NCBI RefSeq assembly: GCF_900111745.1
Contig: NZ_FOIJ01000003.1
Coordinates: forward strand, 1 to 64,000
DNA from: Stigmatella erecta
GTDB taxonomy: Bacteria > Myxococcota > Myxococcia > Myxococcales > Myxococcaceae
Length of the DNA: 64,000 bases
Direction of reading: 5' to 3'
In this document: piece by piece, positions 1 through 63,434 of the stretch
How the letters are laid out: every line of letters begins with the position of its first letter
Position numbering within the stretch: the first letter of the stretch is position 1
Notes under the pieces: model-generated
What the model saw: the letters and a program-made list of their open reading frames with translations, nothing else
Database searches by the model: none
Told to the model about the DNA's origin: nothing
Made by a program: the position numbers and the translations under genes

Positions 1-192
1 GTCACGCTTCCTACCCGCCAAGACTGACGACTCCTGCCTCAGGCACCCGGCTCAGGCCTGCCCCTTCAGGGGGACGGGGCACGGCGAACACATACGAGCC
101 CCCGAAATCACCGGGTCCGTGTCGGTGGCGAGTCCCAATCCAGGAACGCGCCTGCTGCCCCCGAAGCGGCGTCACAGCGATCCCTGCTTCAT
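1..192. other. Left-edge stretch, nothing recognised
   Basis: No gene, RNA or repeat that I recognise lies here. Frames on the minus strand stay open for about 80 codons but have no start signal and no recognisable protein family. It is downstream of the minus-strand gene that ends at 193, so it may hold that gene's terminator, although I see no convincing hairpin with a T-tract. Confidence 0.4.
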
Positions 193-2610
193 CTAGCCCG
201 CCACTCGACCGAGACAGCACTTTTTGAACTTCTTGCCGCTCCCGCAGGGACATTGCTCATTGCGCGACGGTGGCCTCTTATGTTCGGCGAGGTAGGCGCC
301 GTATTTCCTTTGGGCGAAATGCTCTAGGTTCTGCTCCAGCTGCGCCGTCGGCTGGACCGGTGCGTCATCCACAAGAAACCGCTGGAGCTTCGAGTCGGAA
401 GCGCGAAAGACTAGGACCACCGCACTCGAGACGCCTGTCTGGTGGCGCTTGAGGTTGGTATACTGCCGCACCTTCGCTTCATCGATGGCGCCGGTTGGCG
501 AGGTCACCAGAACGACCAGCGAAGAAGCCTCCTTGATCACCTGTGTGAACGTATGCTCCTTGCCTTCAGTCCGGGTGACGGCGACGAATTTCTGAACGAC
601 CCCTTCGATCTCGTCTCGGGCCGTGCCGTCAAGCGACAAGAGCAGCGTCGACACGAGAAAGCGCCTGGGCGCGCCCGTGGCTTCGATCTCGCTCATCAGG
701 TTGCGATACCAGTCGGACATCTTCAGGCGCGGCTTTTCTCCCGAGGAGACGCGCCCGGCCAAGTGGTTGTAGTACCGCTCGATCGGGACCGTGTAGCCGA
801 CCGGTGAGAACCGATGCAGCCCCGCGAGCTCCTCTTTCCGGTAATAAAGACCTTCGTTCAGGAACATGGCCAAGTAATCCAGTTCATCAATGGTCGACAC
901 CTGGGGCAGCTCATTCAGGGCCAGCCGGCGCTCGAGGTAGAGCAGGAACTCCGTCGGCGACTCCAGGAGCTCGCTGATGACGCGCAGGTCGTTGATGAAC
1001 ACGGACCAGGGCCAGGTGCGGCCATCGACGAGCCCCATCTCCTTCGCGGAGTTGAGTCGCGCCGAGACGTGGCCGATGTCGGCCAGCGTGACGTTCACCA
1101 TGTAAACGGAACGAAACTGCTCAAGGGACTTAATCGTGACGGCCTCGGTCCCGTCCTCCCGCTCGAAGCGCGCCGGAAGATGGTCCTGGATGAACCGCAG
1201 CGTTCGGGTGGCTTGCGTGTAGGGCTCGCCGACGAGATGCGAGAGGTCGCTCTTGAGCGTCTTTTCGGCACCTCTCATCGCGGCGTCGGAGAAAGGCCCG
1301 GCCTTCATCTCGACGACGAAGAGCACGTCGTCGAACAAGATCAGGCCATCGGATTCGAATCGCCGAACCAAACCGTTCTCTGTCGTGCTGTAATAGACGT
1401 TCGGAAAGATTTGGGCGCCCGGCAACAAGCGCGCGAGGTGCCCAAGCGTGAGTTTCTCGATGGTTTTTCCACGCACTTCGACGTACTTCGTCTTGTAATA
1501 CTCTGGATCTATTTCCTTGATCAGTCCCTCCAGGATGTGGGCCCTGTTTCTCATGAGGAGAGTCGTGTTGGGGCAGTACAGCTTCCCGTCTTTCTGGATC
1601 AACGGGCGCTCAAAGATCCGGCTGTCATTGGAGGGCCATCCGGGGGATTTCTTGAACGTCAGGAAGCCGGAATTCTCGCCGACAGACAATGAGAGCTTGT
1701 CGCGCAGGAAGCCGGTGGGGTCCGGCAGGGTCACCTCGAACTCCGGATACCCACCCTTCGACCGCATGGACTGCATCTGGCTGCGACACTCGACGCCCAA
1801 GGGAGAACTCCTGATCTGCGACATGGCCTCTTCGAGCGACAGTTCCGGGCTTTTGTCGGTCAGTGAAATGAACTCTTCGTGCAGCTTTTTGAATTTCGAC
1901 ATCAACTTGCCGTGGGCGTGAATGGCATCCATGACGCCTTTGTTGATGTCGTTGCAGATTGAGAGGAACTGACCGGTGGTGGGGAGATTGTGTCGTTGAA
2001 AGAACGGATCGTGCGCAGAGAAGAGCGCTTGTATCAGCTCCGTGTCGTGCTCCAGAAACGAGGAGCCGCGAATTGCCAGATGCCGCATCATCCCCAGGAA
2101 CTGCGTTTCGTGGACGGCGAATGACGAGTTGGGGTTCATGTCTTTGAACATGAAAAAGAACATGCAGCTGTCAACGATGGACTTCACGAGCGTCTCGAAT
2201 CGCTCGGCCTGCTCTTCTGTCGCCTGCTGGGTCCCGTGGTTGGGAACCGACATGATCAGGCTCTGGGCATACTCGACGTACGATTCACGACCCTCGTGTT
2301 CCGGCTCGGAGTAGGTCTCCATGTCCGCAAGGTTGTTCTTGAGGAAGATGGAAAACAACAGCGGGAGCGGATCGCATGCCGCGACGATGCCGCTGCACTC
2401 GTTGATCTGCTTCGCCATGTCGGAGGTCAACTTCTGCCTCATCTCCGGCATCTTCTCCCGCATGCGCTGGAAGGCGGCTGGGTCCCACCGGGTCTGCGTA
2501 TGAAGGAAGCGGCCGAATCTGGCCATGGTCAAGGGGCCTGCCGAGAAGACCTCGTCCGGCTTGATTTTGACCTTTCCCTGTTCTCTCTTTTTTTTCTTCT
2601 TTTGTCCCAT
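193..2610 (-). CDS. PD-(D/E)XK-like nuclease core fused to a C-terminal SEC-C zinc motif
   Basis: An 805-residue protein beginning with a very basic MGQKKKKKRE stretch. I chose the ATG at 2610 because the upstream frame is low-complexity and AT-rich non-coding sequence precedes this codon. Around residues 417-436 the order Asp421, twelve residues, Glu434-Met-Lys436 in a predicted strand (VLFVVEMKAG) matches the D...ExK catalytic core of restriction-endonuclease-fold nucleases. The last 25 residues carry CPCGSGKKFKKCC, the SEC-C zinc-binding motif first named for SecA and found in many unrelated proteins. The first 400 residues are not recognisable to me. The protein is cytoplasmic by sequence. 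It has lower GC codon use than genes right of 8.8 kb, which fits acquired DNA. A role in defence or DNA processing is inference; only the zinc motif is certain. Confidence 0.7.
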   Translation of the reverse strand: MGQKKKKKREQGKVKIKPDEVFSAGPLTMARFGRFLHTQTRWDPAAFQRMREKMPEMRQKLTSDMAKQINECSGIVAACDPLPLLFSIFLKNNLADMETYSEPEHEGRESYVEYAQSLIMSVPNHGTQQATEEQAERFETLVKSIVDSCMFFFMFKDMNPNSSFAVHETQFLGMMRHLAIRGSSFLEHDTELIQALFSAHDPFFQRHNLPTTGQFLSICNDINKGVMDAIHAHGKLMSKFKKLHEEFISLTDKSPELSLEEAMSQIRSSPLGVECRSQMQSMRSKGGYPEFEVTLPDPTGFLRDKLSLSVGENSGFLTFKKSPGWPSNDSRIFERPLIQKDGKLYCPNTTLLMRNRAHILEGLIKEIDPEYYKTKYVEVRGKTIEKLTLGHLARLLPGAQIFPNVYYSTTENGLVRRFESDGLILFDDVLFVVEMKAGPFSDAAMRGAEKTLKSDLSHLVGEPYTQATRTLRFIQDHLPARFEREDGTEAVTIKSLEQFRSVYMVNVTLADIGHVSARLNSAKEMGLVDGRTWPWSVFINDLRVISELLESPTEFLLYLERRLALNELPQVSTIDELDYLAMFLNEGLYYRKEELAGLHRFSPVGYTVPIERYYNHLAGRVSSGEKPRLKMSDWYRNLMSEIEATGAPRRFLVSTLLLSLDGTARDEIEGVVQKFVAVTRTEGKEHTFTQVIKEASSLVVLVTSPTGAIDEAKVRQYTNLKRHQTGVSSAVVLVFRASDSKLQRFLVDDAPVQPTAQLEQNLEHFAQRKYGAYLAEHKRPPSRNEQCPCGSGKKFKKCCLGRVAG

Positions 2611-2697
2611 GTGATTTCTCGTATTTTTGAAATCTATTGGAAGATTGGTTCGTTGAACCCTACCTGAATGAGTCAACGGCTGAAAAGCACAGCGATC

Positions 2698-2876
2698 ACC
2701 ACGGATAGGCAAAATAAGCCCCGCCCGAGCGCCATCCCCCGACGGCAGCGCCACCGCCCCGCAGCTGACACGCAAGGCTCCGCCCCACCACGAATAAGTA
2801 AAACAAGCCCCCTCCAGTGCGCAGACGCCCGACGGAAGCGCCACCGCCCTGCGACCGACGCACAAGGCTCCGCCCG
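2698..2876. repeat. Two-copy direct repeat, about 89 bp
   Basis: Two diverged copies sit head to tail, the first starting ACCACGGATAGGCAAAATAA at 2698 and the second ACCACGAATAAGTAAAACAA at 2787. Both end in CAAGGCTCCGCCC. The copies share the middle block GACGG(C/A)AGCGCCACCGCCC. There is no coding signal; it looks like a decayed tandem duplication or repeat family member. Confidence 0.65.
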
Positions 2877-2915
2877 GCCGCGTCCGCGCAGCCCATGCCA
2901 TTCTCCCTCGCTGCC

Positions 2916-3098
2916 TCAAGCCCCCGCTTCGCCGCCCGTCCAGCGCTGGTCCTCGTCTTCCGGCTCCCAGCCCGGGCGCTCCCTCTCTTCGGGAGGCCCC
3001 GTCGGCCACAGTTCCCCCTGCGGCTCTTCCTCGGCCTTCGCCACCTCGGGCGCCTTCGCCGGCAGCCCCAGGTGCTCCAGAATCTTCACTCCGGCAAC
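2916..3098 (-). pseudogene. Transposase C-terminal remnant (IS91-like, tentative)
   Basis: The minus-strand frame reads VKILEHLGLPAKAP, then a linker, then ELWPTGPPEE and an acidic tail to a stop at 2916. The combination of KILEHLGLP, a short proline/alanine linker and ELWPTGPPEE resembles, from memory, the extreme C terminus of IS91-type (Y2) transposases seen often in myxobacteria. The upstream frame loses any resemblance exactly at the hairpin at 3100-3140, so only about 60 residues survive. No start codon, catalytic tyrosine or zinc region is left. The family name is my best guess; a protein search of this tail would settle it. Confidence 0.45.
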
Positions 3099-3099
3099 A

Positions 3100-3140
3100 T
3101 GGTACGCTCCGCCGCGATTGCTACGCGGCGGAGCGTACCA
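3100..3140. repeat. Perfect 17-bp inverted repeat (hairpin)
   Basis: TGGTACGCTCCGCCGCG at 3100-3116 is followed by the 7-base loop ATTGCTA and by its exact reverse complement at 3124-3140. It abuts the broken 5' end of the transposase remnant. No T-tract follows on either strand, so a simple terminator is less likely than a REP-like element or a transposon end. Confidence 0.8.
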
Positions 3141-3413
3141 ATGTCCCCACGACACTGTGTCGAGCGCCAGGGCCTCGGGTCCGCCGCCGACAGCGCCCGC
3201 TATCCACCGCGATGCGGTTCCGCCCGGGTCCTGAGCAGCACCTCGCGCGCAGAGCATCGAGATGCACCAGGCGTTCGGTATCACCGTCACCCCGGTGGTG
3301 GGTGCAGATCCAGGGCGGATTGGCGGGGTGTGCTCGGGGCGGACCGGGGCCTCAACACTGCGCCAGGGTTCTTGGCACGCATCGCCTGCGCGGGGTGGAA
3401 AGGTGGGCTGGCT

Positions 3414-4268
3414 TCAGTCGCCGAGACGGGAGAAGTCGAGGTGCTCGGCAATGGCCTCAAGGCTCTCCGGGGCTCGCTCGCAGAATTCGGCAATGTCGAT
3501 CCAGAAGAGCCATCCCTGAACGCCCTTGATGCCTACCCCCATCTGCTCGCCGGACGGCGTGTCCATCTCGTAGAACCCGCCGAGATTGTAGGCCTCAAGT
3601 TGCTGCACTCGCTCATTGAGGATCCGCTGAGAGATCCCCAGCGCGTCCCTTACATCGCTTATGAGAATCGTGGACCACCCCCAAATGCTATCCCGGGATG
3701 CCACGCGCGAATCCTTCATGCGGTAGGTGCGCTGCACGACGGCACGGAGGAAGCCGCGAACCTCCCGAGGCACCTTCCTGTAGTCCTCAAGGTACTGATT
3801 CAACCAGCCGACCTGATCCACGAGTTCAGCGTCAAGCTGTCCCCACTCAAGGACCTTGTTGATGCGCCGCAGGTTCTTCACCGGCTTGGGCTGTGTCAGG
3901 GTCGTTAAGTCCTTCAGCCTCTCCAGGATGACTTCTCCAGGATTGGCGAACTTGCGCTCGTGGTCCGCCTTCATCCGACGCAGCTGCTCGACCGTGTACA
4001 CAGTGACGTCGTCAGTCACTGTGTGATGCTCGTAGCACATCAGCATCAGGTTGGAGACATGGCGCCGGTCCTCATTCGTCATCGTGGGGTCGAACCGTTC
4101 CCCGCCTGGCGACGCGGCCGCGATGTGGCAGACCTGTCCGATGAAAGTGCCCTCCTCGTTCATCATCAGGTGGGTGCAGCCCGGGAACGCACACAGGTTG
4201 CCGGACTTCAGGTAGAGCTCGCGGAGCGTCTCTGGTGTCGGCGTCAGTCTCTTCACTTCTTCAGTCAT
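3414..4268 (-). CDS. HNH-type nuclease-like protein with C-terminal winged-helix-like region
   Basis: A 284-residue protein starting at the ATG at 4268, where recognisable sequence begins (MTEEVKRLTP). The N-terminal third carries Cys26 and Cys31 in LCAFPGC, His48 in QVCHIAAASP, Asn73 in VSNLMLMC and the pair His81-His82: the C-x4-C...H...N...HH layout of HNH nucleases that begin with an ICAFPGC-type zinc knuckle. Residues roughly 110-200 are charged and helical. The end (DVRDALGISQRILNERVQQL and following) looks like a winged helix, so DNA binding is plausible. It is on the same strand as the SEC-C nuclease, but 800 bases apart, so probably not one operon. Defence or mobile-element association is inferred from the neighbourhood. 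Confidence 0.75.
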   Translation of the reverse strand: MTEEVKRLTPTPETLRELYLKSGNLCAFPGCTHLMMNEEGTFIGQVCHIAAASPGGERFDPTMTNEDRRHVSNLMLMCYEHHTVTDDVTVYTVEQLRRMKADHERKFANPGEVILERLKDLTTLTQPKPVKNLRRINKVLEWGQLDAELVDQVGWLNQYLEDYRKVPREVRGFLRAVVQRTYRMKDSRVASRDSIWGWSTILISDVRDALGISQRILNERVQQLEAYNLGGFYEMDTPSGEQMGVGIKGVQGWLFWIDIAEFCERAPESLEAIAEHLDFSRLGD

Positions 4269-4339
4269 GGCGCGGGCGACCTTAGCCACTTCCGGTGAGG
4301 CGGGACTAGATCCAGCGGTGGGTGGACCACCTGCGCCAA

Positions 4340-5250
4340 GCAGGTCTGCTTGCCACCGGTGAAGGTGGCGAGTCGGGGTGGATCTGCGCAGGCCCGAGCC
4401 GGCCGTGCCGCGAAGGTGAGCCTGCGAGGTGGGCCGCCCGGCGGAGCGGATCCACCCGGGGCCCCAAAGCCGGTGGGGATCCACCCTTGCGGCCACGAGA
4501 TCGGGCAGAAGGCCGGTGAGCGGCAGGGGAGGCTCCGTCCCGCGCAGGCTGCGAGGCCCTATAAAGCCGAGCCCCCGTGCGGCCCGTATAAAGCCCGTGC
4601 GGCGCCGATGAAGGCGGTTAGAACGAGCTGGCCGCCAGGCCTGCCGCCGACTGCTGCGGGGGTGGACCTCCTGGTGGAGCCGATCCACACCGGCTCAGAG
4701 CTGGCCGTGTCGCTCATGAAGGTGGGGCTGCGGGGGTGGACGTCCCGGCCCATGCCCAAGCTGCCGACTGGGGCGGGGTGGATCTGCGCGGGCCTGAAAC
4801 TGGCTGTGCTGCATGAAGGCGGTGCGCCGGGGGTGGACCTCCTGGCGGGCCCGGATCCAGCCACAGGCCGATGCCGGCACTGCCTGCCATTATGAAGGCG
4901 GTGCGCCGGGCGGTGGACCTCCGGGCGGGCCGGATCCTCCGCGGCCTGAGCTGGCCGTGGCGCATGAAGGCGGTGCGCCGGGGTGGACCTGCTGGCGGGA
5001 CTGGATCCCCCTCCCGGGCCCGAGCTGGCCGTGGCGCATGAAGGCGGTGCGCGGGGGTGGACCTCCTGGCGGGACTGGATCCACTCCATCCCCGAGAGGA
5101 CTGTGCTGCTTGAAGGCGGTGCGCCGGGGTGGACCTCGCCCGGCGGGAGCGGATCCACCCGAGCCAGAGGCCGGCCGGTGCAGCGGGGGTGGACCTGCGC
5201 AGTCTCCGCCCCGACCCGAGCTGGCCGTGCTGCATGAAGGTGGTGCGAGC
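4340..5250. repeat. Degenerate ~73-bp tandem repeat array, non-coding
   Basis: A motif beginning ATGAAGGCGGTGCGCCGGGG, followed by TGGACCTCCTGGCGGGACTG, then GGATCCA, a variable CCCGAGCTGGCCGTG and back to ATGAAGG recurs. The ATGAAGG-type anchors stand at 4608, 4716, 4813, 4892, 4964, 5038, 5110 (TTGAAGG) and 5234. The most regular units are 72, 74 and 72 bp, so the frame is not kept and all six frames stay open only because of base composition. Degraded pieces (CGGATCCACC, GAGC(T/C)GGCCGTG) extend left to about 4340. Several units contain GTGGA and TCCAC about 18 bases apart and two contain GGCGCA / TGCGCC, so transcripts could form hairpins. No spacers of constant length, so not CRISPR. Function unknown. 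Confidence 0.75.
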
Positions 5251-5794
5251 TGCCGCAGCCGGAGGGACAAGCGTTTCCAATTGGCCCTACCTGAAAAGTC
5301 TTATCGTGACTGCAGACCCGGCGGGACCCGGCGGGAATCGATGACTCTTGATGCCAACCAGCGGCACGCGCCGCTAGCGGTACTTGGACTAAGCCCAAAT
5401 TGCTTCGGCGACCCCTGGGGTTGGGAGCGAACTTCGTCCCGCGATCGGTAGACTTTCAGAGGGAAAATGATAGAAGGATTTGCTGGTTGGAGGTCGCGTC
5501 AATGAGCGACCGGGAGGTCTCACAGGACGCGGACCATGAAGGGTCCGCCCCACGGTGGATGCGGGGCTTTGCCCCAAAAAAACTTCAGGCCGTCACCATG
5601 GAAGTGGGTCCATGGCAACGGCCCGAAGAACGACGGGACCTAGTACGTAAGAATCCGCGCCGTGCTCGTTTTGGCGGACAAGCACTCGCACTCTTGCGTA
5701 CAACGCCGACCGTCGTCAATTCGTTTGGAGGCCAGAATGAGGCCCATGCGGAGCTTGGCACCTCCGCACACAGACAGTCGGAAAGGAGGCGGTC
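5251..5794. other. Intergenic stretch, no recognised gene
   Basis: About 540 bases between the repeat array and the 51-residue gene. Frames on both strands lack family resemblance and consistent codon bias. A small GGGGC-TTT-GCCCC hairpin near 5562-5574 is followed by A residues on the + strand rather than T, so it is not a + strand terminator. The promoter of the gene at 5795 presumably lies at its right end. Confidence 0.4.
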
Positions 5795-5950
5795 ATGCGC
5801 AAGCAGCCGCTCTTCCTCCACGAGGACTGCGAGTGCCCGCGTTCGGCGTTTTTCACGAGCGCGCGCGGCGTGAGGTACTACGCCAAGTGGTACGGCAAGA
5901 AGTGCTTTGTCTTCCACACTCGCAGCTGCCCCAACCGGAGGAGCCGCTAA
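5795..5950 (+). CDS. 51-residue Cys/aromatic-rich basic micro-protein
   Basis: A short frame that starts with ATG at 5795 after an ideal ribosome site (AAGGAGG at 5783-5789, five bases before the start) and ends at the TAA at 5950. The product has four cysteines, in HEDCECPRS, KKCFVFH and SCPNRR, seven aromatic residues beyond Phe-rich FF/YY pairs, and a basic C terminus (PNRRSR). The two-plus-two Cys spacing could bind a metal ion. A GC-rich hairpin at 5969-5999 lies 18 bases after the stop. I do not recognise the family. Strong ribosome site plus hairpin make a real gene likely, but coding status rests on those signals alone. Confidence 0.55.
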   Translation: MRKQPLFLHEDCECPRSAFFTSARGVRYYAKWYGKKCFVFHTRSCPNRRSR

Positions 5951-5968
5951 CCAAGGCGGCTAAGCGCG

Positions 5969-5999
5969 GGGCCCGGAGGGATATACCTCCCTCGGGCCC
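5969..5999 (+). terminator. GC-rich hairpin after the micro-protein gene
   Basis: GGGCCCGGAGGG pairs with CCCTCGGGCCC around a short ATATAC loop, with one bulged G, followed by TTT only. It is placed 18 bases after the stop codon of the 51-residue gene, as expected for an intrinsic terminator with a weak T-tract. Confidence 0.5.
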
Positions 6000-6235
6000 T
6001 TCGTGACTTCGGACTCCGTGACAGCCCCTGCCGCGTAGCGAGACGTGATGAGCCACACCGGTACGGCAGGCCAGCGTCGCTCTTGCCGCGTACAGGCCCG
6101 GGGCTAGGCAGACGGGCCATGCCTCCCCACACCGTGCAACTGGTTGCAGCCGCACGCGGCAGTCCCACTTCACTTCTTCTATACTCTCACTGCGGTGAGG
6201 CAACACGCGCGCATGTCGCACACGGAGAGTCACCA

Positions 6236-6760
6236 GTGAACCCTTGGTTCTTCTTCTACGGTGTGGTCGGTTGCGCTCTCCTATGGGCGGCACTGGACCA
6301 TTGGGTATTCCTGCCGCAACGGCTGGAGCGCCAATTCGGCGATGCGTGGCGTTCGTACAACGAGAAAGCCTTCCATCCTCAGATCGGGCTGCCGGGTGAA
6401 GGTAACGTCCGCGATCTAGTTCGCGTTGCCTTCGAGGTCTGTAGCAAGGGAGGCAAACTGGCCGTCGTTATTGAGCACCATGAAGGGACAGGGATTGCTG
6501 TCCATGAGTTTGCTAGAAATGGCTTGTTTGCCTCACGTGGGCCGTACTTCATACGGCTGAGGAACTCAGTCTGGTCATTTACGGGAAGACGTCACATGCT
6601 CAAGTCCGTGCTCTATCCCTATGGCATTGCAACTTCTAATCCGAAAGGTGGGCAAACACGCGAAGTTGCCCGTGAGATCCTAGAGTTCGATACGAAGCGG
6701 TACCCGCCATTGTCTCTTCGACAGTACGCACAATTGGCTCAACGCTCCGAGAACATATAA
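6236..6760 (+). CDS. Membrane-anchored hypothetical protein
   Basis: A 174-residue protein from the GTG at 6236, chosen because a GGAG ribosome site lies at 6223-6226 and because the product then begins with a membrane segment (about residues 3-25, PWFFFYGVVGCALLWAALDH). The rest is soluble and ends LRQYAQLAQRSENI. The region LVRVAFEVCSKGGKLAVVIEHHEG and the following GPYFIRLRN suggest a small alpha/beta domain that I cannot name. It is not part of an obvious operon: the hairpin at 5969-5999 precedes it and a minus-strand nuclease gene follows. Codon use matches the accessory block rather than the GC-rich backbone. Confidence 0.6.
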   Translation: MNPWFFFYGVVGCALLWAALDHWVFLPQRLERQFGDAWRSYNEKAFHPQIGLPGEGNVRDLVRVAFEVCSKGGKLAVVIEHHEGTGIAVHEFARNGLFASRGPYFIRLRNSVWSFTGRRHMLKSVLYPYGIATSNPKGGQTREVAREILEFDTKRYPPLSLRQYAQLAQRSENI

Positions 6761-6890
6761 ACAGCACAAACATGCCTATTGCGGCGCGCCGCTCGCCTAG
6801 TCAGTCCCAGCATCAAGGCCAGTCCGCCTAGCGTAGGAGTCACTTTGAAGAGGCGCACGCATTGGTCGGATGCCCTGACACCAGCACTGC

Positions 6891-7589
6891 TTATGGCCAG
6901 ATGACGCGGCAGGCCAGATACTCGCTCAGCACCATCTGCACGGTGTTGCCATCATTCTGACTGACGCGGTAGCGATAGCGGCCTTCCTGCACCACGATCC
7001 AGTCGTCCCATGGGACCATCAAACCCTCTCCGATGACAGCCCGCTGGAAAGCGCGGCTGCCAATCTCCGGCCAGAGGCTTACGCCGGCCTCGTCGGGCGA
7101 CTCGAACGCCACTCGGTCATCGTCTGTCATACAGATAAACGGCATGAATTCGACGACCTCCGGCTCACTGAGGCCGGGCAGGCTTAGCTCGTAGGCCATG
7201 TGACCCCGCGCGAGTTTGAGTAGGACGTTCCGCACGCGGTTACGGTCCGGCTCCCAGATTGTTCTCCCATCCACCACGCGGCGGCACTGGGCGAGGCGAG
7301 CCGCGAGCGCTGGGCGCTCGGCCAACGTGCGCTTGATCTTCGATCGCACGACGCCAGCCGGATCACACGCGCCGGTCACCGCGCACTCGATGAGGCAGGC
7401 GACGTATTCTTCGTCCTGAGAGAAACCCTCATTGCATGATCGGCAGGCGTCGACCACCGGCAGGTTGTCCGGTGGCGGATCGTCGAGCAGCACCCTTGAA
7501 GGAACGTGGTCGCGTGTGTCGGGTGATCCGTAACAGTAGGCGCACATACCGTTCAGCCGCTCATCGACGAACAGTTTTCGAGGGTCCAT
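6891..7589 (-). CDS. HNH-type endonuclease-like protein
   Basis: A 232-residue protein. Cys16-x2-Cys19 (MCAYCYG), His28 in TRDHVPSRVLLD, then Cys49-x2-Cys52-Asn53 (ACRSCNEGFS) is the CxxC...DH(V/I)PS...CxxCN layout of a zinc-stabilised HNH nuclease. The remaining 170 residues have no recognised domain. The ATG at 7589 has a good ribosome site (AGAGG at 7597-7601, seven bases away). It is transcribed divergently from the PD-(D/E)XK gene at 7629 with only 39 bases between the start codons, and a perfect palindrome sits in that gap. The shared control region suggests that the two nucleases work as a unit; its target is unknown. Confidence 0.8.
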   Translation of the reverse strand: MDPRKLFVDERLNGMCAYCYGSPDTRDHVPSRVLLDDPPPDNLPVVDACRSCNEGFSQDEEYVACLIECAVTGACDPAGVVRSKIKRTLAERPALAARLAQCRRVVDGRTIWEPDRNRVRNVLLKLARGHMAYELSLPGLSEPEVVEFMPFICMTDDDRVAFESPDEAGVSLWPEIGSRAFQRAVIGEGLMVPWDDWIVVQEGRYRYRVSQNDGNTVQMVLSEYLACRVIWP

Positions 7590-7605
7590 TCCGTTACCTC
7601 TTGTT

Positions 7606-7626
7606 GAGCGGGTATCCTACCCGCTC
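7606..7626. promoter_or_regulatory. Perfect 9-bp-arm palindrome between divergent nuclease genes
   Basis: GAGCGGGTA at 7606-7614 and its exact complement TACCCGCTC at 7618-7626 surround TCC. It fills about half of the 39-base gap and ends two bases before the ATG ATG of the + strand gene. It could be an operator shared by both genes or an RNA hairpin masking the + strand start, which has no Shine-Dalgarno sequence of its own. Confidence 0.6.
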
Positions 7627-7628
7627 GG

Positions 7629-8096
7629 ATGATGCTGACCGAGAACCATGTAATCGAGGCCGTGGCCAACCACCTCGCGACGCGGGGCTGGACGATCAAC
7701 CAGAAGCTGACGACTGCCGAACGGGGTATCGACATCATCGCGAGCCGGGCAGGGAGCGGACGCCTGCTCGTCGAGGCAAAGGGCGGCACAAGCTCAATGC
7801 GGCATACTAAGCGCTTCGGCAAGCCCTTCGACGACGGCCAGGTGAAGAAGCATGTGTCCGTGGCCTTCTACTACGCCGCGAAACTCCAAGGGCTGCATCC
7901 CGCCGACTCCATTGCACTGGCGCTGCCAGACGACGCTTGGCACCGAGCCGCTATTGAGGCCATCGGCGCGGCGCTCGGCAAGCTCGTTATCTGCGTCTAC
8001 TTCGTCGCCGCCGACGGCGGCGTCTGTGAGTGGAGTGGACATGGGCTTCTCGTGGGTCCTAAGAGGCCGGGCGACTCGGACTGCTCGCGTCCGTGA
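7629..8096 (+). CDS. Mrr-like PD-(D/E)XK nuclease
   Basis: A 155-residue protein. Residues 33-52 read GIDIIASR, a short turn, and LLVEAKGG: Asp35, Glu49 and Lys51 form the D-x13-ExK catalytic core of restriction-endonuclease-fold proteins (Mrr/VRR-like). GQVKKHVSVAFYYAAKLQ at 70-87 fits the helix that follows the core and often contributes a Gln. Two ATGs stand at 7629 and 7632; neither has a clear ribosome site, and a perfect palindrome ends at 7626. No methyltransferase or specificity subunit is adjacent, so this is not a classical restriction system. It is most likely a stand-alone nuclease of a mobile or defence module; the substrate is unknown. Confidence 0.8.
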   Translation: MMLTENHVIEAVANHLATRGWTINQKLTTAERGIDIIASRAGSGRLLVEAKGGTSSMRHTKRFGKPFDDGQVKKHVSVAFYYAAKLQGLHPADSIALALPDDAWHRAAIEAIGAALGKLVICVYFVAADGGVCEWSGHGLLVGPKRPGDSDCSRP

Positions 8097-8157
8097 GTGG
8101 CTTGCCCCTGTTAGGCCGCATGTGCCCCCAGTGTGCCCCTCCAGCGGGGATAAGCAT

Positions 8158-8187
8158 GGGACGAGACGGGATGAGACGGGATGGGGC
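8158..8187. repeat. Three 10-bp direct repeats
   Basis: GGGACGAGAC, GGGATGAGAC and GGGATGGGGC follow each other without a gap, exactly one helical turn apart, 80 bases before the attachment-like site. Such phased repeats are typical of arm-type or excisionase-binding sites, which is an inference from position only. Confidence 0.6.
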
Positions 8188-8266
8188 GGCAGAACGAACC
8201 GACGTGAGATCAAGGCGTTAGCCGGTAACAGCGCGACCTGCTTGGGGTTTTGCTTCCGCCTTGTTA

Positions 8267-8290
8267 CGGGTTCGATTCCCGCCGCCTCCA
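8267..8290 (+). other. tRNA/tmRNA 3'-end-like segment, putative attachment site
   Basis: The T-arm sequence CGGGTTCGATTCCCG is followed by the acceptor-like CCGCCTCCA, matching the last 24 bases of a bacterial tRNA or of tmRNA (whose 5' end GGGGGCG would pair with CGCCTCC). The upstream sequence does not form the rest of a tRNA, the T-stem closing pair is already lost at 8266, and no CCA is encoded. Such isolated 3' ends are the duplicated core left when an integrative element inserts into a tRNA gene. The matching intact gene would lie outside the window. Confidence 0.6.
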
Positions 8291-8451
8291 TGGAGGAACC
8301 GCCGCAGCAGCTTTCCGAAATTCGTTGTCATCCCTCAGGATGAGAACATGCACCGGCCAATGAGGGGTTGGCGATCCCGCCAACGGACAGGTCTTGTGCT
8401 GTGACTGCAACATCAAGAAGGGTGATCAGGAACAGTGAAGGCACCCCGACG

Positions 8452-8880
8452 ATGAGCGAGCCTGTGACCGAGCACCGCGTCAAAATCCTGTTCGAGCTTG
8501 AGCAGGACGAAGATGCTTATCCGCCAGTGAGTGCAGAAACGCTCTGGGCCATCAAGGCCGGTGATGGCCTCTTCAAAATCGACAACATTCCCTTCTTCAC
8601 GCTTGGCATCGCGGTGAACGACATCGTTTCCGCAGTTCCGGAGCAGAATGTCTTCCGTTTCAAGAAGGTTGCGCATCGAGCAATGGGGTTACGAAGAAGC
8701 CTGCCTGGCACAGCCTTGAAAATGGGGTGGCGCTCAGCCAGGAGGTGCAAAGGACCCAGGCTCGTAAAGGAGCCCGCCCGCCCGCCGGGGCCACAGCCTT
8801 CCAAGGAACGTTGCCGCCTGGGAGTATCCTACGCGGCGGATGTTTTCCCTTCCTGGCTACACGCTCCTCGGAGCCCATAA
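8452..8880 (+). pseudogene. Truncated DUF4265 protein gene
   Basis: From the ATG at 8452 the first 73 residues read like a DUF4265 protein: KILFELEQDEDAYPPVSAET, then LWAIKAGDGLFKIDNIPFF and DIVSAVPEQ. DUF4265 proteins are normally about 140-170 residues. Resemblance stops near 8670, and the frame then continues into arginine/proline-rich sequence that overlaps the start of the hybrid kinase gene at 8840. The C-terminal half has therefore been lost, probably by the rearrangement that created the nearby island border. Function of the family is unknown. Confidence 0.6.
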
Positions 8881-60904: not shown

Positions 60905-60930
60905 AGCCCGTTCGCGCCCCCCGACGGGCT
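60905..60930. terminator. Convergent-gene hairpin
   Basis: AGCCCGT at 60905-60911 pairs exactly with ACGGGCT at 60924-60930, between the stop codons of the small lipoprotein (+) and the lectin-tailed protein (-). It could stop transcription from both sides; T-tracts are short. Confidence 0.45.
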
Positions 60931-63434
60931 CAGAGCAACTGCACGTTGCCTCCGAGCGAGGCAACGTACGTCGTCCCTCCGGAGTGCACCACCGTCGTCC
61001 CGAAGAACGACCGGATCCCACTGCCTGCCGGTGCGGCGAGCGTGAAGGGCCGTGAGTTCTGGACGTTATGCAGCGTCCCGAAGGGGCCGTGGGTTTTCCC
61101 GCGCGCGGTCTGGAAGGTGATTTGTGCCACCTGCTCCATGCCGAAGTATGTGCCCGTGAAACCGGAGAACGACACGATCGCGTCGCCGGTCAGATCGATC
61201 GAGGCCGCGTTGCCGCCATTGCCTCCCTGGAGGGACGGGGAGTTGGAGCCATAGCTGGGCTGAATGGCGTCGATGATGTCGCCGGAGCGCACCAGGAGGC
61301 TCGTCATGGGTCCCCAGCCGCTGACCGTGGGCAGGTTGTCCCAGCCCGCTCCCGGTCCTCCCACGGGACCGATGGGGCCATAGGGCATGCCCGACTGGAA
61401 CCAGTTCAAGATGAGATTGCAGCGGATGGCCGACAGATCACGGCTCGCCGGCATGTGCAGCGGCTGGCTCATGTCCAGGCCGAGGACCCGTTGGATCTTG
61501 TCGCGGTTCTCCACCACCCCCTCATAGGTCCACAGCTGGAAGCGGCCCATGATGGGATAGAGCATGCCGTACTGCCGCAGGATGTCCCGGATGCCGTTGG
61601 TCCACGAGGGCGTGCCCGAGATTGGATTCTGCTGATAGATCTGAACGCTGACGAGATCGTCCGGGTCCTGGTTGTAGTCCGTGACCTCGGGGGAGAACGT
61701 GTAGGAGGTGAAGTAGACCTGTCCGTCGATGAAGCCGCGGGGATTGCCTGGATCCTGGCCGGTGAGCGTGACGGTGGCCTTGCCTCCGTTGATCGCCACG
61801 AGGTTCGAGGAGAGGACGAGCTTTCCCGGGGGCGTGGAGATGTTGTTCGGGTTGATGCCATTGGTGCCCGACGTCCCCAGGGTGCCAAGGGTGTACTCGG
61901 ACGCCGCGCTCGGGCTCAGGGTGTTCAACTGGATCTTCCACTGGTCCGTCCCGTCGGTGCGGCCGAACTTGCGCACGTAGATGTTGACGGTCTGGGTTTC
62001 CCCCAGCGGGAAGCTGGGCGTGGTCTGCATGCCCGGGTTCATGCGGAAGACGAACTGATCCGCGCGCATGCTCAGACCCTCGGAGTTTTCCTCCAGCAGG
62101 GTCTGGGTCACGGACTTGCCGTTGACGCGCGTGGTGCTCTGCAGGGCGATTGGAAGGTTCGCGAGGCTCTTCGGGTCCACGGAGCCGAAGTTGGTGACGG
62201 TCAACATCCCGGAGCGCTTGTCGATGAAGTCCGGCTGGGCGTAGTCGATCGAGGGGACGAAGGTCGTGTACGTCTTGGTGTCTCCGGAGCCCGTGTAGTA
62301 GGCGAGCGACAACGTCCCGAGCGCCTCGGCCCACAGCGGCCGTCCCGGCATCTGGACGGGCAATGAGTTGGCGAGGTCGATGGTCAACGAGGGCGTGGTG
62401 CCCTGGAGATCGAGCTGGGCCTGGGCCCACCAAGCGGCGGGAGTTGTCCCCTTGGGCGGCGGCGCCAGGGTGCGCGCCGGGACGGCAAAGGCCGGCTCGT
62501 CATCCAAACAGGGGCCGATGGAACCGACGAGCTTGCCGTAGTTGAACTCATAGAGCGGCTGCTCGGACAGCGGTTGCCCACTGCTATTGGTCCAGGGCTG
62601 GTAGGGCTGCTGGGTCGCGGCCAGGATTGCCGGACCGTACTGCTGCGCGGCGCTCTGTCCCAAGAGCTGTTCGAGCAGGTTGTTGACGTAGGACATCGTC
62701 GGGATGAAGCCCCGCCCCGGAGGCTTGGGCGTTTTTCCGTCTGCATCGAGGTTCATCACGTAGTCCTGGAGACTCGTGATCTGGTTGAGGACACTCTGGG
62801 GCACCCCCTTGCCCAGCATCGTCTGAAACGTCGTTGGGGTGAAGGCATAGAGCTGAGGGCCGTTGTTGTGGGCGCTGACCACCATGCGAATGGACAGGCG
62901 GTTGGGCGATGCTTTCTGGAGCGCCTGGAGGACCGCCGAGTTGCCGGCATTCCATTTCAGGTTGGTGAGCGTCGATTGGTAGACGGCGGAGCCGCTCGCG
63001 GAGTTATGTGGGGTATTGGCGCCCTGCGAGTTGCCCCAGATGCCATTGAAGGCCACCGGGGTGAAGAGCCCCTGGACGTAGGCACCGCCGAAGGTGCCAA
63101 TCATGACGGTCATCCCCCAGATCTCACTGCCGTTCTGCTGCATGGGGTCCAGGTCCACCAGCTTGGGCGGGGAGCTGGTGTACAGGGCCGTGACCGAGGA
63201 CCCCAGCAGGGAGTCGCTGGTGATGCCGGGGGCATCGATGGTGGTCACCGTGCACTTGAGCAGATCGAAGATGCTGTCGCCCTTGGGCTCCCAGTAGAGC
63301 TCGATGTTCTTGGGCTTGAGCGAGTCTTCGTTGTAGTTGTCCGGGTTGTAGTTGTTGGGCGTGTTGTTGATGGTGGCCGGCGAGGCCTGGAACTGCCCGG
63401 AGAAGTTGATGCGAGGTTGGTCGAGGTAGCTCAT
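60930..63434 (-). CDS. Large protein with C-terminal jacalin-like lectin domain
   Basis: An 834-residue protein without a signal peptide. It starts MSYLDQPRINFSGQFQASPA, a start I associate with a bacterial and fungal family of unknown role. The last 130 residues (GGNGGNAASIDLTGDAIVSF, GMEQVAQITFQTARGKTHGP, and HSGGTTYVASLGGN) resemble a jacalin-like mannose-binding lectin fold: GG-rich loop, paired Phe/Gly strands and a terminal SGG motif. The central 600 residues are not recognised. The gene is 12 bases after the CxxCH gene, so co-transcribed. Confidence 0.65.
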   Translation of the reverse strand: MSYLDQPRINFSGQFQASPATINNTPNNYNPDNYNEDSLKPKNIELYWEPKGDSIFDLLKCTVTTIDAPGITSDSLLGSSVTALYTSSPPKLVDLDPMQQNGSEIWGMTVMIGTFGGAYVQGLFTPVAFNGIWGNSQGANTPHNSASGSAVYQSTLTNLKWNAGNSAVLQALQKASPNRLSIRMVVSAHNNGPQLYAFTPTTFQTMLGKGVPQSVLNQITSLQDYVMNLDADGKTPKPPGRGFIPTMSYVNNLLEQLLGQSAAQQYGPAILAATQQPYQPWTNSSGQPLSEQPLYEFNYGKLVGSIGPCLDDEPAFAVPARTLAPPPKGTTPAAWWAQAQLDLQGTTPSLTIDLANSLPVQMPGRPLWAEALGTLSLAYYTGSGDTKTYTTFVPSIDYAQPDFIDKRSGMLTVTNFGSVDPKSLANLPIALQSTTRVNGKSVTQTLLEENSEGLSMRADQFVFRMNPGMQTTPSFPLGETQTVNIYVRKFGRTDGTDQWKIQLNTLSPSAASEYTLGTLGTSGTNGINPNNISTPPGKLVLSSNLVAINGGKATVTLTGQDPGNPRGFIDGQVYFTSYTFSPEVTDYNQDPDDLVSVQIYQQNPISGTPSWTNGIRDILRQYGMLYPIMGRFQLWTYEGVVENRDKIQRVLGLDMSQPLHMPASRDLSAIRCNLILNWFQSGMPYGPIGPVGGPGAGWDNLPTVSGWGPMTSLLVRSGDIIDAIQPSYGSNSPSLQGGNGGNAASIDLTGDAIVSFSGFTGTYFGMEQVAQITFQTARGKTHGPFGTLHNVQNSRPFTLAAPAGSGIRSFFGTTVVHSGGTTYVASLGGNVQLL

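Follow-up and report, generated by a model that had tools for sequence, protein, structure and literature searches.

Site-specific integrases are thought to be tied to the genes of transfer RNA (tRNA) and transfer-messenger RNA (tmRNA), stray insertions being harmful, as described for ICEBs1 in the cited sections of PMC3715440. Among the closest described systems, the islands at the tmRNA gene ssrA of Dehalococcoides are bounded by ssrA and by short direct repeats of its 3' end (cited sections of PMC3146451). The sitAI cassettes are known on mobile DNA such as Mx-alpha prophages (cited sections of PMC5562445, PMC8546572 and PMC10047993), and sitA loci outside Mx-alpha-like elements typically adjoin other mobile genetic elements (PMC5562445, same sections). 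Here we analysed the first 64 kb (64,000 nucleotides, called the window) of contig C3 of Stigmatella erecta, genome G000, position 1 being the contig start. Positions 1-8290 of the window form the right-hand part of a cassette, probably mobile, that belongs to a large set scattered through the chromosomes of social soil bacteria and edged by copies of the tmRNA tail.

Element borders, integrases and insertion sites

The aligned ends of these elements sort into the left families LA, LB and LC and the right families RA, RB, RC and RD; these names and the element numbers E1-E11 were coined in this analysis. The window element finishes in an end of the RB type, with the following features:

8268-8290, + strand: core, a copy of the ssrA 3' end (T-arm plus acceptor) forming the right attachment site (attR); 23 nt identical to the ssrA of the same genome
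8118-8290, + strand: right end of element family RB (attR plus arm region); nhmmer 188 bits, E 2.8e-56
8121-8141, + strand: arm-type motif of the B lineage (TGTGCCC..AGTGTGCCCCTC), within the RB end
8158-8187, + strand: three direct repeats GGGAYGRGRC, possible further integrase sites, as read from the sequence
8211-8263, + strand: inverted repeat CAAGGCG (8211-8217) / CGCCTTG (8257-8263), just 5' of the core, read from the sequence

The reference for the core is the sole full-length ssrA copy of the genome (C2:285180-285543, 183.9 bits). A preliminary description of this DNA had seen a T-arm plus acceptor 3' end without the rest of a tRNA at 8267-8290, and had taken it for the border of an island and the footprint of a tRNA-targeting integrase. 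This half of its interpretation stands: the 23 nt are the ssrA 3' end, position 8267 contributing a further C that also matches. The window as a whole yields no tRNA or tmRNA gene in ARAGORN and no Rfam match at the gathering score. The window is itself one of the six training sequences of the RB model; independent support comes from the matches of 1-8290 in 14 genomes at 1e-20, which include 95 right ends other than itself. The right border is sharp in 75 of these matches, which stop at most 2 bp from 8290, and 90 end within 8281-8290. The only other DNA common to 1-8290 and the 14 genomes consists of three matches to the contig-end repeat (1-96), all in the genome itself, and the cargo is unshared at the DNA level in these genomes. 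A conserved RNA structure of the right end was considered and rejected, the folded stems being mostly invariant or broken and the covariation not convincing.

The other half, a single island lying beside an intact tRNA or ssrA gene, has to be abandoned. The core 23-mer, allowing up to 2 mismatches, has 21 copies distributed over nine contigs as a dispersed family in this genome, with 0 copies of the reversed-pattern control and a chance expectation of 0.0036 at 69% G+C. On the contig of the window, the nearest further cores are 551 kb to the right. The ssrA gene lies on C2 with an element of its own and is continuous on both sides. Sixteen of the 21 cores pair up on the same strand at distances of 2.7-13 kb; one of these eight pairs is ssrA itself together with the 10.9-kb element E1. 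We rejected the possibility that the cores are tRNA genes, since ARAGORN finds nothing but ssrA among 13 element loci; an intact tRNA or tmRNA gene (tDNA) is found at the other end of E1 and at none of the 12 other element loci scanned. The twelve measured elements of this genome make up 0.84% of its DNA.

The core was also found, with at most 1 mismatch, in 89 of 96 Myxococcaceae genomes, the control being 0 throughout. Of 18 genomes sampled from four genera of this lineage of social bacteria, 17 carry 12-35 tails each, apparently often at look-alikes of the T-arm, and the 18th has 4. Elsewhere the counts are 1-17 in 27 genomes of genus g19, 1-7 in 16 of g6 and otherwise 0-2. For three complete or near-complete chromosomes, with 16, 21 and 23 core sites after merging those within 30 kb, the positions fit a uniform spread (Kolmogorov-Smirnov p 0.77, 0.93 and 0.51).

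Two motifs of 18-21 bp, each in a single orientation throughout and with 0 occurrences in shuffles, distinguish the lineages of ends. Motif A is present in 24 of 28 LA and 20 of 23 RA ends and in none of the 72 B ends; for motif B the counts are 28 of 35 LB and 35 of 37 RB ends, with none among the 51 A ends. The end families were recruited by profiles that include the motifs; left and right profiles are separate, and therefore the sharing of a motif between both ends is not built in. As predicted from sequence, motifs A and B would behave like integrase arm sites.

A tyrosine integrase is encoded beside the left core of E3 (Phage_integrase 4.1e-33) and of E8, whose protein is 97% identical. 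At 1e-60, 53 of the 96 genomes have 1-7 integrase matches each, fragments included; 6 of the total of 117 have an internal stop and many are fragments, and in core-rich genomes the integrases are outnumbered by the cores. Of the 53 named integrase loci we scanned 35, allowing up to 4 mismatches in the core, and in 18 of these a core lies 61-102 bp beyond the integrase stop (160 bp in L235). The integrase lineage associated with LB ends is 73-94% identical to the E3 integrase and the one associated with LA ends 66-74%; the L222 integrase (69%) has only a weak LB match. Loci L216, L222 and L228 are at ssrA, and L207, L215, L223, L225, L227, L229, L231 and L240 at tRNA genes, the others being at neither. 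An integron cassette was rejected as well, the IntI integron model scoring 57.8 bits against a cut-off of 265.

Integrases with 48-50% identity also occur in metagenome-assembled genomes labelled Polyangia, Deltaproteobacteria, bacterium and Patescibacteria (L234, L235, L236 and L238), beside tmRNA genes at L234 and L235 and beside tmRNA-like cores at L236 and L238. A search for a phage or plasmid home of the integrase gave only relatives below 33% identity at 1e-20. Elements with the same left end but another, tRNA-like core (GGGTTCAAGTCCCGTACTCCTCG) were seen at L203 1707 (G000:C2:115207), L206-L209 and L250. L207 sits at tRNA-Asp, and L203, L206, L208 and L209 are loci without a tRNA gene; because of these four, other tRNA tails, beyond that of ssrA, may also be dispersing.

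One g19 site could be compared in the filled and the empty state, 6 of 13 genomes keeping the conserved gene end there. G066 and G059 are empty and have an intergenic inverted repeat at this place (GCCGCAGCGG-CGATTC-CCGCTGCGGC in G066; GCCGTAGC, then TTCGATTCGT, then GCTGCGGC in G059), and the site is filled by a core with an LB end in G065, G076 and G062 and by a core with an LA end in G077. The comparison thus shows entry into an intergenic inverted repeat that resembles the T-arm of tmRNA. The ssrA gene of G066 and G078 appears uninterrupted, with an intact tmRNA and no left-end match above 15 bits past the core. At 31 left borders outside ssrA and not flagged as tandem, the six host bases adjoining the core prolong the T-stem with 5.13 of 6 pairs, compared with 2.21 in a slid control; at least 5 pairs are formed in 84% of these borders versus 2% of controls. 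Among six sites of the genome studied here, E2, E4, E5, E7 and E9 have 5-6 pairs and E6 has 2. In its closest relative, G037, the sites of E4, E5 and E6 hold a core with a different element end or size, and in more distant members the stretch examined has no core in two at E4 and in six at E5. The right flank of E6 (L034 10493-10732) matches seven relatives at several places each, with 72-97% identity, and seems to belong to a large family of repeated genes.

Cassettes and competing explanations

SitA toxin/immunity genes let social soil bacteria tell kin from strangers. Seven LA-RA units of 2.5-2.9 kb without integrase carry such genes: E5, E7, E9 and E11 of the genome studied here and one each in G036, G042 and G041. 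All seven toxins are above the curated SitA5 cut-off, each with more than 160 bits and an immunity gene adjacent; six cassettes combine Tox-REase-5 with Imm52, and E9 combines AHH with Imm11. Toxin and immunity are the only genes of size in these minimal cassettes, which keep both attachment (att) ends and have no integrase or transfer gene. Some ends are diverged, the right core of E9 having 4 mismatches and the left core of E11 having 5. The twelve measured elements contain 4 of the 25 SitA5 matches of this genome (binomial 5e-5), and a fifth, partial match is at E10. The genomes G036, G041 and G042 also contain an integrase of 68-72% identity, which is in the range of the A lineage.

The larger elements have other cargo, including a Z1/MzaC-like helicase in E2 and FRG and GmrSD-like proteins in E3. 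In E3 (L031 12630-14491) the FRG-domain gene lies beside a GmrSD/DUF262-like gene, a plausible defence pair. We also observed in G077 a small LA-RA unit with P450-like and ferredoxin-like frames, recognised by eye.

The window and the dispersal are best explained, with a probability of about 0.82, by an integrative family based on the ssrA tail that has its own integrase, enters look-alikes of the T-arm and includes trans-mobilised members. Positions 1-8290 would then be the right part of a Myxococcaceae element whose attachment core is the ssrA 3' end. A tyrosine integrase, encoded beside the left end of some members, would recombine T-loop core sites around TTCGATT, making use of the lineage-specific arm motifs of both ends. 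The 3' ends of ssrA and of tRNA genes would be the primary targets, and intergenic T-arm-like inverted repeats would also be entered. Once a core is present, the site could be re-used, giving tandems and, in sister species, one site occupied by differing elements. The integrase-less members, among them the SitA5 cassettes, keep both ends and would most likely be mobilised in trans by a cognate integrase, and members of the family may pass between cells.

Several observations weigh against this explanation. The single clean empty site is in another genus, and several of the host-side flanks at the 31 left borders resemble one another (the CTGGGAGTGCCAGGCGGC type) and could be right ends belonging to further families. 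The host-derived right halves at attR are nearer to ssrA than true empty sites are; simple secondary-site entry fails to explain such ssrA-like halves, and re-use of sites covers the tandems, not every case. No circular form or excision was observed, and many of the ends and integrases have decayed to fragments. Since the window begins at the contig start, the left end of its element is not seen, and no integrase is among the genes of 1-8290, the left part of the element lying off the contig. As far as scanned, 20 of the 25 SitA5 matches of this genome are outside these elements, and their loci have no element end above 32 bits (L185 31.7, L189 17.4). At 1e-60 there is no full-length A-lineage integrase in this genome, so that its A cassettes are without a visible resident helper.

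For one step only, the origin of the SitA5 cassettes, an alternative that is compatible with the explanation above comes slightly short of even odds. The cassettes would be deletion products that arose site by site, that is, cis-mobilizable elements (CIMEs), and only full elements would move, the 2.7-kb units never having been mobile as such. Decay of this kind is known from the cited sections of PMC5704250, and the spacing between the left end and the SitA gene is unequal among the cassettes. The alternative has to contend, however, with the uniform layout of the seven cassettes, which in all four genomes have the SitA5 gene after the left end and the immunity gene between it and the right end, and with the 80-83% DNA identity to E7 that five of the other six show over most of their length, E9 having only its ends in common with the E5 type. 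The existence of two toxin/immunity types also argues against it.

A further proposal, going beyond the trans-mobilised family, is tentative and in our opinion rather doubtful. The ssrA tails would be interchangeable docking sites of a chromosome-wide cassette network, at which integrases acting in trans swap toxin-immunity and defence cassettes and so make part of the repertoire of kin identity, in the manner of a dispersed integron.

It is unlikely that the cores are dead remnants, relics of old tmRNA islands that were broken and scattered by rearrangement, with none of them moving. Single or diverged cores, integrase fragments, tandem leftovers and the lack of a full-length A-lineage integrase in this genome would fit such a history, but neither the pairing of ends that have intact arm motifs, with cargo genes still open, nor the filling of one site by different elements in sister species does. 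Integrase matches, moreover, are spread over more than half of the genomes, and few are broken by a stop, even if fragments are frequent among them.

A transposon with terminal direct repeats that captured the ssrA tail, moved by a DDE transposase or another enzyme, is highly improbable: sites other than tRNA genes, a spread that fits uniformity in three genomes and an IS66-like transposase gene in E2 (by eye) would suit it, but nine complete elements have a target duplication of only 0-3 bp and no terminal inverted repeat, a tyrosine integrase adjoins left ends, the element in ssrA leaves ssrA intact, and relatives are located at tRNA genes. Equally improbable is an ordinary single ssrA island with an intact ssrA to the left of the window and a displaced ssrA fragment as border, for which the core sequence and a compositionally foreign interior would speak, but which the position of ssrA on C2 with another element and the 21 dispersed cores already refute for this assembly, barring a misassembly of C2 and C3.

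Cargo and surroundings of the window element

The features inside the window element and to the right of its border are:

1-95, no strand: contig-end repeat; the same sequence opens contigs C1 and C26, an assembly break
193-2610, - strand: 805-aa SEC-C protein with a PD-(D/E)XK-like motif, cargo; SEC-C 8.1e-9 (Pfam)
3414-4268, - strand: 284-aa HNH endonuclease related to CBASS/SAVED effectors, cargo, putative defence; PADLOC PDC-M68A 7.8e-28 plus CBASS effector models
4800-5160, no strand: degenerate tandem repeat, 74-bp unit x 4.8, among the cargo genes
6236-6760, + strand: 174-aa protein, cargo; no Pfam or PADLOC match at 0.01
6891-7589, - strand: 232-aa HNH-like protein (by eye), cargo; no Pfam match at 0.01, PADLOC weak, 0.0038
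7629-8096, + strand: 155-aa Mrr/PD-(D/E)XK-like protein (GIDIIA..LLVEAKGG), cargo; Mrr_cat 0.0092, below the cut-off
8364-8438, + strand: what is left of a C-terminal frame (..LCCDCNIKKGDQEQ*), toxin-like on inspection by eye
8452-8880, + strand: internally deleted DUF4265 gene; Pfam 1.2e-9, profile positions 1-48 of 115

The preliminary description had called the left 8.3 kb less GC-rich, gene-poor and nuclease-rich, and on all three points we agree. The G+C content is 62.4% in 1-8290 and 69.2% in the remainder of the window, and 0 of 238 other 8.29-kb windows are as low; the coding share of 1-8290 is about 60% (five open reading frames chosen). The nuclease content is carried by the HNH endonuclease and by the SEC-C protein, in which the motif D421..E434-x-K436 is invariant across 5 sequences, and more weakly by the Mrr-like and HNH-like proteins. 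Matches to the SEC-C protein were found in 4 of the 95 other genomes of the family, with an identity of 20-24% in the full alignment, and no core was found in the 4-5 kb loci of these four homologs. Its predicted structure has a predicted local distance difference test (pLDDT) score of 66 and only weak matches in the PDB, with E of at least 0.009 and nothing below 0.001, several of them to nucleases (Can2, SduA, McrBC). A single-sequence structure prediction of the 284-aa HNH protein was useless (pLDDT 37). Going by family resemblance only, a role of the nuclease genes of the window element in phage defence is plausible.

The DUF4265 gene that follows the border is truncated, as had been reported, by an internal deletion relative to the copy of G036. 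The latter is longer, has itself an early stop and ends just 5' of another core, and it is preceded by a stretch resembling the remnant at 8364-8438. Because DUF4265 relatives lie directly before another core in G036, G037 and G042, the toxin-like remnant and DUF4265 probably represent a second, decayed cassette to the right of the core.

Ends of contigs C3, C7, C18, C20 and C27 of this genome fall at or near elements of the family, and C7 and C27 share a terminal left flank of 75 bp, beyond which they continue differently. At the other end of the window, 60-64 kb is another stretch of lower G+C and contains the gene of an 834-aa protein with a jacalin-like lectin domain (60930-63434).

Comparison with known systems

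All comparisons refer to the cited sections of the respective papers. The ssrA islands of Dehalococcoides (PMC3146451) are similar in their insertion at the T-loop and in that some lack an integration module and were called possible cis-mobilizable elements. They use, however, the serine recombinase DsiB, whereas the family described here has a tyrosine integrase, and their repeats are all within 100 kb downstream of ssrA, whereas the copies here are chromosome-wide.

The tDNA islands identified by Islander (PMC4383910) share the tyrosine integrase, the T-arm core and the restoration of the 3' end of the gene by the element. A tDNA 3' fragment in the Islander sense is present at the right end of the window element. 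To qualify for Islander, an island must contain an integrase and be bordered on one side by an intact tDNA, in contrast to most elements examined here, which are at non-tDNA sites, and several of which have no integrase. ICEBs1 (PMC3715440) is alike in that an integrase of a tRNA gene has alternative sites; its secondary sites are detrimental and selected against, whereas here many non-tDNA copies persist per genome.

CIMEs (PMC5704250) likewise retain attL and attR, lack integration and transfer genes and take part in tandem accretion, and E5, E7, E9 and E11 resemble CIMEs in having both att ends and no integrase or transfer gene. Unlike CIMEs, the small units here are found repeatedly, in a constant gene order and at scattered positions, and their cargo is toxin/immunity genes of kin discrimination.

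The sitAI cassettes (PMC5562445, PMC8546572 and PMC10047993) have in common with the minimal cassettes the SitA5 escort domain, a modular nuclease toxin and the adjacent immunity gene. Their carriers here are small units ended by ssrA tails, in which no phage genes were seen, though no scan with a phage-family library was made; the Mx-alpha prophage is a unit of about 100 kb with phage structural genes, far larger than these cassettes. The words tmRNA and ssrA are absent from the main texts of these three papers, and our literature searches did not find a published description of such dispersed ssrA-tail elements, by which absence from print is not established. If active, the elements would offer a tangible means by which myxobacteria turn over their kin-discrimination loci. 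Taken together, the family works like the tDNA-integrase islands, with CIME-like members, and has escaped from tDNA sites.

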